In this document: in pieces, positions 45,731 to 48,830 of the stretch
Numbering within the stretch: position 1 is the stretch's first letter
How the letters are laid out: each line of letters starts with the position of its first letter
From: Haloarcula sp. DT43
GTDB taxonomy: Archaea; Halobacteriota; Halobacteria; Halobacteriales; Haloarculaceae
Length of the DNA stretch: 64,000 nt
Reading direction: 5' to 3'
Assembly (NCBI RefSeq): GCF_037078405.1
Contig: NZ_JAYMGZ010000002.1
Span: 186,001-250,000, forward strand
Position numbers and translations under genes: made by a program
The notes under the pieces: model-generated
What the model was told of the DNA's origin: nothing
Databases searched by the model: none
What the model saw: only the letters and a program-made list of their open reading frames with translations

Positions 45731-45925
45731 TCAGGCGCGGCCGCCGCTGGCGACCGGCGGATTGTAAAATAGCGCGTAGCCGATGGAACCAGTCGCCGGG
45801 AGACTGCCGGCACTCAGTGCGGTCACGAGGCTAACCGAGGTGACAACCGCGCCGAGCGACGCCAGCAGCATCGAGAGCGCGATGCTGGCGAGCACGAGGT
45901 CGGGCATCGACGGCGAGCCGAACAT
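45731..45925 (-). CDS. Small two-helix membrane protein, 64 residues
   Basis: This 64-residue protein has two hydrophobic helices (LVLASIALSMLLASLGAVV and VTALSAGSLPATGSIGYALF) and a short polar tail. It is the gene after infB on the same strand, separated by 70 bp that hold a TATA-rich tract, GGAGG and a 20-bp perfect palindrome touching its start codon. I do not recognise the family. Confidence 0.6.
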   Translation of the reverse strand: MFGSPSMPDLVLASIALSMLLASLGAVVTSVSLVTALSAGSLPATGSIGYALFYNPPVASGGRA

Positions 45926-45926
45926 T

Positions 45927-45946
45927 CGTGTCTCTGCAGAGACACG
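45927..45946. promoter_or_regulatory. 20-bp perfect palindrome CGTGTCTCTGCAGAGACACG at the start of the small membrane gene
   Basis: The palindrome has two exact 10-bp arms with no spacer, one base upstream of the ATG (45923-45925). It lies just downstream of GGAGG and of an AT-rich TATA tract at 45952-45967, so it covers the expected transcription start. It could be an operator for a dimeric repressor or an RNA hairpin that hides the start codon. Confidence 0.6.
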
Positions 45947-45951
45947 CCTCC

Positions 45952-45967
45952 TAATTAAATATTATTA
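45952..45967 (-). promoter_or_regulatory. AT-rich promoter of the small membrane protein gene
   Basis: The only A/T-rich run of the region (TAATAATATTTAATTA on the minus strand) lies about 27-40 bp before the ATG at 45925 and can supply a TATA box. A GGAGG motif (45947-45951 on the minus strand) precedes the palindrome. Confidence 0.55.
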
Positions 45968-45995
45968 CTCGCGCAAAGGGCGCGCTGGGAGCCGC

Positions 45996-47801
45996 TTACT
46001 TCCCCCAGAACGGGTCGCGGTTCCGATGTTTCTCCAGGTACATCGACAGGGCCTCGCGCTCGTCGACGGAGATGTCCTCCTTGAGTTCCTGTTCCAGAAT
46101 CTTCGCGTGTTTCTCCGGAATTTCGACCCAGAGGTCGTCGCCTTCCTCTATCTGGCGGCCGACGGTCGGCCCCTGGATTGAGACGGCCATGCGCTCGCCG
46201 GCACGGGCCGAGTCGACGTCCTCGCCCTCGTCCTGAATCGTCTTGAGAGTCCCGACGCGGTTGGCCTCACCGTCGTCCCACCTGACGACGTTGACGTTCC
46301 GCCGGAGTTCGCCCGAGAGGATTTCGACGCCGACGACGGCGGGGTCGGACTGGCGGAACGTGTGGTCCTGCAGAATCCGGAACTTCGCGGGTCGGGTGAT
46401 GTTCTCCAGAATCTGCTCCTGCTGGGCCTCCTCGATGGCAGTGACGTGGTCGTCGTAGGCCTCGACGAGCTGGTAGATGACGTCGTCCTCGAACAGTTCC
46501 ACGTCCTCCTGCTCGGCGAGGTCCCGCGCGTCGTCGAGCACCTCGACGCTGAACGCCAGAATCGCCTGGTTCGTCGGTTCGCCCGCCGTCTCGGCGACCC
46601 GCACGTCCCGGGGCGCGACCGCGCCGACCTCGGCGCGCATGACCGGGATTTCCTCCTCCTCGAGCGTGCTGGAGAGGGCTTCGAGCGAGCCCAGCGTGTC
46701 GGCCTTGATGACGACCCCCTCCTCCTGTGTCGTGACCTCGATTTCGGCGAGTTCCTCCTCGACTTCGGCGATGACCTCGCTGCGGTCGCGGTCGCGGACG
46801 ACGCGTATCGGCGCGCCGGCCATCGCGTCCCCGAGGTCCGGTGCGGCGATTTTGACGCCGTCGGCGGCGGCGACCTGCTCGACCTGTTCGAACTCCTGTT
46901 CGGTCCGTATCTCTTCGAGCGGGCGGGGGCGAAGCAGCGCACGCACGTCGGTGACGATAGACCCCTGCAGGCCGCCGACGACGATGGTGTCGTCGTTGCG
47001 GATGGTCCCGTCGTAGATGATGGCGTCCAGCGTCGTTCCGAAGCCCTGGGTGTCTTTCACCTCGAGGACGGTGCCGACACCGGGGCCGGTGGTGTCGATT
47101 TCCATCTCCTCTTTCATGTACCGCTGGGACAGCCCCATCATCACCGTCAGCAGGTCGGGGATGCCCTCGCTGGTCTCGGCGGAGACGGGGACGACGCCGA
47201 TGTTGGCCTGGAAGTTCTGGACGCGCCAGTACATGTCCGCGGAGAAGCCGTTGTCCGAGAGTTCGCCGATAATCTCGTACAGTTTCTCGTTCAGGTCGGA
47301 CTGGACGCGGTCGGACTGGGCCTCCATCGTCTGCTGGACCGGCTGCCCCTCGTTGGGGTTCCAGCCCGGAATCGTGTCTATCTTGTTCGCGGCGACGATG
47401 AACGGCGTCTGGGTCCGCTTGAGGATGTCGATGGCCTCCAGCGTCTGGGGCTGGAAGCCGTCGTTGACGTCGACCACGAGGATGGCGATGTCGGCGAGCG
47501 CGCCGCCCCGGGAGCGAAGCGTCGAGAACGAGTGGTGGCCCGGCGTGTCGATGAACAGCAGTCCGGGCAGGTCGAAGTCCGTCGGGTCGACCAGGTCGCC
47601 GGCGATTTCGGAAATCACGTTCAGCGGGACGGCAGTCGCGCCGATGTGCTGTGTAATCGCGCCCGATTCGCCGGCGGTGACGGCCGACCCGCGTATCTTG
47701 TCGAGCAGGCTCGTCTTCCCGTGGTCGACGTGGCCGAGGACGGCGACGATGGGCGTCCGCAGGGTGTCGTCGGTGGCTGGGGTGGGGTCCGTGTCAGACA
47801 T
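45996..47801 (-). CDS. infB: Translation initiation factor aIF5B
   Basis: This 601-residue GTPase joins ribosomal subunits at initiation. The P-loop GHVDHGKT is at residues 23-30, switch II FIDTPGHHSF follows and NKID is near residue 140. Domains II-IV follow in the order of archaeal IF2/eIF5B. The N-terminal extension of bacterial IF2 is absent, as in archaea. It has no intein. A convergent or antisense gene was not found. Confidence 0.96.
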   Translation of the reverse strand: MSDTDPTPATDDTLRTPIVAVLGHVDHGKTSLLDKIRGSAVTAGESGAITQHIGATAVPLNVISEIAGDLVDPTDFDLPGLLFIDTPGHHSFSTLRSRGGALADIAILVVDVNDGFQPQTLEAIDILKRTQTPFIVAANKIDTIPGWNPNEGQPVQQTMEAQSDRVQSDLNEKLYEIIGELSDNGFSADMYWRVQNFQANIGVVPVSAETSEGIPDLLTVMMGLSQRYMKEEMEIDTTGPGVGTVLEVKDTQGFGTTLDAIIYDGTIRNDDTIVVGGLQGSIVTDVRALLRPRPLEEIRTEQEFEQVEQVAAADGVKIAAPDLGDAMAGAPIRVVRDRDRSEVIAEVEEELAEIEVTTQEEGVVIKADTLGSLEALSSTLEEEEIPVMRAEVGAVAPRDVRVAETAGEPTNQAILAFSVEVLDDARDLAEQEDVELFEDDVIYQLVEAYDDHVTAIEEAQQEQILENITRPAKFRILQDHTFRQSDPAVVGVEILSGELRRNVNVVRWDDGEANRVGTLKTIQDEGEDVDSARAGERMAVSIQGPTVGRQIEEGDDLWVEIPEKHAKILEQELKEDISVDEREALSMYLEKHRNRDPFWGK

Positions 47802-48426: not shown

Positions 48427-48590
48427 GCCGTACCGTAGGCCGCCTCTCGCATAGGGTTGTGGTCCGCTGTGAGTGCTCTGGTGGCTTGGAGACTACGGCC
48501 ACCGACTGCCAGTACGCACCTGCCATCGCCCGGCAGTCGCCCGTCGGACATCCCCGTGGCGTTTATGTAACCTCGTTCGGAACAAGGGGT

Positions 48591-48830
48591 ATGGCCGCGA
48601 TACTCGCAGAAAACCTGTCGGGGAAAGACGTGATGGGGACTGATGGCGCGGAAATCGGCAGTCTCTACAACATCACGATGGACTTCTCCTCCGGCGCGTT
48701 GCACAACCTCGTCATCGACCCCGCGGACTCGCTTCGCAACACAGACTTCGAGTACAGTGACCAGGGCCGTCTGCTCGTCCCCGTCGGGCGGGTCAAGGCC
48801 GTGAAAGACCACATGATCGTTCAGCGTTAG
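48591..48830 (+). CDS. PRC-barrel domain protein
   Basis: This 79-residue PRC-barrel beta protein reads AAILAENLSGKDVMGTDGAEIGSL, then LVIDPADSLRN and LLVPVGRVKAVKDHMIVQR. PRC-barrels occur in photosynthetic reaction centre H and in RimM-type RNA-processing factors. Here the stop is followed directly by the nob1 ATG, so a link with rRNA processing is plausible. A GTTTATGTAAC box about 25-30 bp upstream gives leaderless transcription. Confidence 0.85.
   Translation: MAAILAENLSGKDVMGTDGAEIGSLYNITMDFSSGALHNLVIDPADSLRNTDFEYSDQGRLLVPVGRVKAVKDHMIVQR

Follow-up and report, generated by a model that had tools for sequence, protein, structure and literature searches.

MetJ is a bacterial ribbon-helix-helix (RHH) repressor of methionine genes, and repressor sites located between the TATA box and the start are a known class in haloarchaea. 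The haloarchaeal RHH regulator CdrS is encoded with ftsZ2, and the ChIP-Seq results described for Haloferax assign to it a symmetrical motif in the DNA and a small number of targets (18 sites). As given in these reports, the motif lies mostly 41–110 nt upstream of the transcription start site, and the targets include ftsZ1, dacZ, proteasome genes, and others (PMC8406309, PMC7439475). Table 1 of the first report also places CdrS upstream of the PRC-domain gene HVO_1691 (PMC8406309).

Here, we describe a promoter of Haloarcula sp. DT43 that invites comparison with these systems. It lies within the 64-kb stretch of DNA that was analysed (the window), for which an earlier note had called attention to a 20-bp perfect palindrome touching the start codon of a small membrane gene. 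Our analysis indicates that the AT-rich element adjoining the palindrome, together with its small putative regulon, is the stronger finding. Also in the window, within a few kb of infB, are a PIN-domain gene and, next to it, a 90-aa PRC-barrel gene (48558–48830).

The gene is an open reading frame of 64 residues with a single long hydrophobic stretch that leaves room for two short helices, as the earlier note had read it. The protein matched no family in Pfam or NCBIfam, and a protein search found its relatives in 41 of 60 genomes. The nearest named relatives of the source genome are H. japonica, H. mannanilytica, and H. amylolytica, and 31 Haloarcula orthologues of the gene constituted the set for promoter comparison. 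The gene is located behind infB in its own genome, as had been noted, but only 14 of the 31 orthologous promoters have the end of infB at most 160 nt upstream of their AT element. The same genomes also encode longer paralogues of the two-helix protein, with open frames of 86–112 residues (L066–L068, L070, L072, L073, L075); no AT element was found in the upstream sequence inspected of these paralogues, which share about 31–49% identity.

Table 1. Features of the 64-aa gene and its promoter (positions in the window)
Feature	Coordinates	Strand	Basis or conservation
64-aa two-helix small membrane protein gene (target)	45731..45925	-	ORF; orthologues in Haloarcula and other genera
ATG of the 64-aa gene	45923-45925	-	
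Predicted transcription start region of the 64-aa gene	45925..45930	-	Inferred from TATA spacing
GC dyad CGTGTCT-N6-AGACACG, putative genus-specific operator	45927..45946	.	Sequence; conservation in 31 promoters
GGAGG between GC dyad and AT element; not a conserved Shine-Dalgarno	45947..45951	-	Exact in 9/31
AGTAATAATATTTAATTA, TATA-like element and putative conserved operator	45952..45969	-	18-mer invariant in 31/31 Haloarcula promoters
infB (archaeal IF5B), upstream neighbour	45996..47801	-	Pfam

The palindrome CGTGTCTCTGCAGAGACACG was confirmed one base before the ATG, and the window holds no other perfect palindrome of 20 bp. Dinucleotide shuffles of the window (n = 60) contained a mean of 0.2 such palindromes, and at least one was present in 11 of the 60. 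A single such palindrome anywhere within 64 kb is therefore no rarity, and its existence alone is weak evidence; the weight lies on its position and conservation. The fully symmetrical 20-mer was found in 1 of the 31 Haloarcula promoters, that of its own genome, and the conserved part consists of seven bp per side (the GC dyad). All seven arm pairs are kept in 15 promoters, six in 8, and five or fewer in 8, so that at least six are held in 23 of the 31 genomes. The majority base occupies 390 of 434 arm cells versus 123 of 186 centre cells. Thus, the element has the conserved arms and variable centre expected of the DNA operator of a dimeric regulator, at a promoter and in the interval that separates the TATA-like element from the ATG.

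The earlier note had proposed a search for further copies; none turned up in the own genome, even when as many as three mismatches to the palindrome were allowed. GTGTCTN6AGACAC with up to two mismatches matched 62 places in this genome versus 87 for the reversed control, and CGTGTCTN6AGACACG with up to one mismatch matched 23 orthologous and 9 other places in 32 Haloarcula genomes versus 28 control places. Since the relaxed searches yielded fewer places than the reversed control outside the orthologous sites, we rejected the GC dyad as a multi-gene operator and regard it as a putative single-target element. It has no second site, and in 8 of the 31 promoters at least two of the seven arm pairs are gone while the gene and the AT element are still there, so no regulon backs it. 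The earlier note had named such loss, in close relatives that still have an intact gene, as evidence against its reading, and it has occurred in part.

The earlier note left two options for the palindrome, a repressor site or a hairpin hiding the start codon. The 16-mer of the AT element ends 25–26 nt before the ATG in 30 of the 31 promoters (the exception, L018, has GTG there). From a TATA-like element at about 26 nt, transcription is expected to begin at the ATG or immediately ahead of it, and the mRNA is probably leaderless or nearly so. The report on Haloferax volcanii gives 72% of protein-coding transcripts as leaderless (PMC4983044). The GGAGG that had been likened to a Shine-Dalgarno sequence is 21 nt from the ATG and exact in few of the promoters (Table 1), and it does not behave as a conserved ribosome-binding site. 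If the palindrome were transcribed, its stem could sequester the start region, and a 51-nt RNA beginning at the palindrome is indeed predicted to fold (−19.6 kcal/mol, z −2.27). The TATA-like spacing, however, predicts a start at or near the end of the palindrome; a perfect 20-bp stem is present in 1 of the 31 species; and among the eight promoters with one broken arm pair, a G.U pair is kept in only two. The changes are thus not those that preserve pairing, and the conservation of the GC dyad in these alignments tracks base identity. We consider the hairpin very improbable. The base identity of the arms, the variable centre, and the placement downstream of the TATA-like element and ahead of the ATG fit a DNA operator better. 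Alternatively, the dyad may have no function and persist by kinship; its erosion in the 8 promoters agrees with this, as does the fact that it was not seen before the two-helix gene in the promoters of other genera inspected. Across the 31 species, however, neither the upstream flank nor the centre is nearly as well kept as the arms, and a dyad without function is improbable. Among the promoters inspected the GC dyad is confined to Haloarcula, and it is probably a second, genus-specific operator.

The AT element is conserved far beyond the genus. The 18-mer AGTAATAATATTTAATTA and the AT-rich 16-mer within this promoter, TAATAATATTTAATTA, show no variation in the 31 Haloarcula promoters, and most of the 30 preceding bases are nearly unconserved. 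Of 392 genomes from the order, 63 contain TAATAATATTTAATTA, each in exactly one copy (reversed control, 0 of 392). All 63 genomes, 26 of Haloarcula and 37 others, were inspected, and a two-helix gene lies downstream in 62: in 26 of 26 Haloarcula genomes and, as a homologue, in 36 of the 37 others. At one exact 16-mer, locus L133 of genome G251, the two-helix gene is missing downstream. A longer AT form with up to three mismatches was found in 83 of 392 genomes versus 3 for the reversed control, and its variants include TAATAACATTTAATTA and the perfect palindrome TAATTACATGTAATTA. The reading of this stretch as a promoter agrees with its TATA distance in Haloarcula, but the stretch is better conserved and more widespread than the palindrome and appears to be more than an ordinary promoter.

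The sequence TAATAATATTTAATTA belongs to a wider motif, TMATnAnATnTMATnA, which was present in 106 of 125 genomes, usually in one to three places. In its general form, TAATnAnATnTAATTA, the motif has a second place in genomes G000, G027, and G022, where it immediately precedes a gene of the PAPS-reductase family, whose domain (PF01507) was assigned by Pfam on the homologue of L159. A third site was found in all four Haloarcula genomes searched, and the inspection of this site was confined to that genus; it overlaps the start codon of a 113-aa gene (orf113) at L192, L193, L195, and in G012 (L223), and a NIR_SIR gene comes after orf113 at L192 and L223. Altogether, 100 of 113 motif loci (93 of 104 distinct ones) precede a gene of one of five kinds: two-helix (63; 61 without duplicates), PAPS-reductase-family (27; 24), RHH (4; 2), orf113 with NIR_SIR (4; 4), or DUF2061 (2; 2). 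The two DUF2061 sites are weaker, being more than 100 nt from the gene: at L190 and L172, the motif is 104–118 nt before DUF2061 membrane-protein genes. The remaining 13 loci have no assigned gene (L133, L141, L142, L147, L155, L164, L174, L191, L196, L197, L198, L210, and L217); some are weak matches only, and L141/L174 and L147/L164 are the same places. At L191 (G010, contig C6), a perfect AT motif lies ahead of an MBOAT_2 family gene. A further own-genome site, TAATTAAATTTATTTG (C4:144067, also in G027), was left out, as it has two mismatches and no assigned gene.

The position of the motif differs between promoters. In front of the PAPS-reductase-family genes it is 2–9 nt before the start codon, and a separate TATA-like sequence (loose pattern) lies upstream of it in 21 of 24 promoters. 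Among the two-helix genes, those of families f14 and f17 carry the motif 1–5 nt before the start, and those of Haloarcula and others carry it at the TATA position. That homologous genes have the motif at either place speaks against a simple TATA box and in favour of a single protein that binds it. The GC dyad of Haloarcula sits where other promoters have the AT motif, which suggests that the AT site took over the TATA role and that a new operator then filled the vacated slot. The two-helix genes of f17 also have a conserved, lineage-specific sequence, approximately CCCCAA-N5-TTGG, about 10–30 nt before the AT motif (L202–L205, L207, L208, L211, L214, L216, and weakly L200).

The target domains, PF01507 and NIR_SIR, were matched, and no target reached an NCBIfam cut-off: the PAPS-reductase-family protein is nearest to CysD and the NIR_SIR protein to ferredoxin-nitrite reductase, each below the curated value. 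Since neither enzyme reaches its cut-off, we infer sulfur assimilation as the process of the regulon only insecurely; it may instead be nitrogen assimilation, or both. Literature searches for a regulator of haloarchaeal sulfate assimilation, for haloarchaeal repressor sites, and for haloarchaeal RHH/CopG proteins with sulfur gave nothing fitting by title, and four exact site sequences did not occur in the literature searched.

A candidate regulator is encoded in the own genome, namely, a 69-aa RHH protein (C2:761277–761483) that matches RHH_1 (PF01402) at 21.9 bits, above the cut-off of 20.5. No motif was found upstream of its gene. In genome G316, the motif is followed by a 66-aa RHH-like gene and, directly behind that, a two-helix gene, and in G191 by an RHH-like gene and then DUF2061; the G316 protein has no RHH Pfam match and is RHH-like by approximately 40% identity only. 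The RHH protein was found in 15 of 15 motif-carrying genomes of a first set and, in a second set (n = 21), in 10 of 10 motif-carrying versus 2 of 11 motif-free genomes. Two genomes (G000 and G048) are common to both sets, giving 23 of 23 distinct motif-carrying versus 2 of 11 motif-free genomes when pooled (Fisher p 1e-6 pooled and 2e-4 for the second set, with kinship ignored). Two of the 10 matches (G038, G054) and one of the 2 (G098) are at 41–44% only. The 11 motif-free genomes were drawn from 19, and 7 belong to one family; therefore, they represent few independent losses. Genome G176, which has neither RHH protein nor motif, retains the orf113 and NIR_SIR pair, and such a motif is absent upstream of it. 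The PAPS-reductase-family gene was not found in 2.0 Mb of the 2.595-Mb main contig of G176; infB was also missed in that part, so the absence of the gene cannot be claimed. We regard the RHH protein as the best candidate for the regulator of the AT motif, at about an even chance.

Two other accounts of the AT element have to be weighed against regulation by this protein. The element may be only an unusually constrained TATA/BRE, perhaps of one TBP/TFB pair, with no regulator, leaving the GC dyad as the sole operator. It is at TATA distance in Haloarcula, and no other TATA-like sequence is evident there; nevertheless, a core promoter element would hardly be found a few nucleotides before the start codon and downstream of a separate TATA-like sequence, as in front of the PAPS-reductase-family genes, nor immediately before the two-helix genes of other families. 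This account has a low probability. It is rather unlikely, though less so, that the motif is a true operator whose binding protein is not the RHH protein, the co-occurrence resulting from shared lineage. Only about five motif-free lineages were tested, and G146 has a close RHH protein and no motif match. On the other hand, motif-free genomes of four families (f1, f4, f11, and f12) do not have the RHH protein and their relatives in f1 and f4 have both, and in G316 and G191 an RHH-like gene is directly behind the motif.

We favour the model in which the palindrome is a DNA operator, the AT element is both a core promoter and the motif of an order-wide regulator, and the RHH protein is the best candidate; as a whole, and on evidence from sequence comparison, we judge it slightly more probable than its negation. 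The GC dyad would occupy the gap from the TATA-like element to the start of a transcript that is probably leaderless, and a dimer bound there would block the recruitment of RNA polymerase or its start. This dyad would be a Haloarcula-level addition to an older control, in which the AT element serves as a core promoter and is also bound by the order-wide regulator. The same regulator may control the CysD/CysH-like PAPS-reductase-family gene and, in Haloarcula, the nitrite/sulfite-reductase operon. The candidate RHH protein would bind TAATTATATCTCATTA and TAATAATATTTAATTA rather than the GC dyad, which would be occupied by a separate protein.

More broadly, the system may represent an uncharacterised haloarchaeal RHH repressor. 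Its regulon would be order-wide but very small, consisting of the two-helix microprotein, an enzyme of the PAPS-reductase family, and a nitrite/sulfite-reductase operon; its site would move between the TATA and start positions in the course of promoter evolution; and to the control of the microprotein gene Haloarcula added a second, independent operator. We put this forward tentatively, at somewhat less than an even chance. If it is true, the microprotein would be a membrane partner of assimilatory sulfur (or nitrogen and sulfur) metabolism. The microprotein family thereby gains a regulatory context through its putative co-control with assimilation enzymes, and a candidate regulator and binding site are proposed for a metabolic regulon of halophilic archaea. 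The promoters would also exemplify an operator that has shifted its position but still serves the same target.

The proposed system resembles CdrS in having a small RHH protein, a symmetrical motif, and few targets. It differs in that the CdrS sites, as described in the reports cited above, are further upstream and belong to other targets, and the 69-aa RHH protein scored 16.5 against a cut-off of 100 with the CdrS model NF058555. As the protein is not CdrS by score, and in view of the position of the CdrS sites, CdrS was dropped as the binder of the AT motif. MetJ has another operator and is another protein, and no homology is claimed; the likeness is that both would be RHH repressors acting at promoters of genes for sulfur metabolism. 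The haloarchaeal repressor sites between the TATA box and the start, compared here as a class rather than member by member, differ in sequence and target genes, and they share with our system the position occupied by the GC dyad and by the AT motif in the PAPS-reductase-family promoters.
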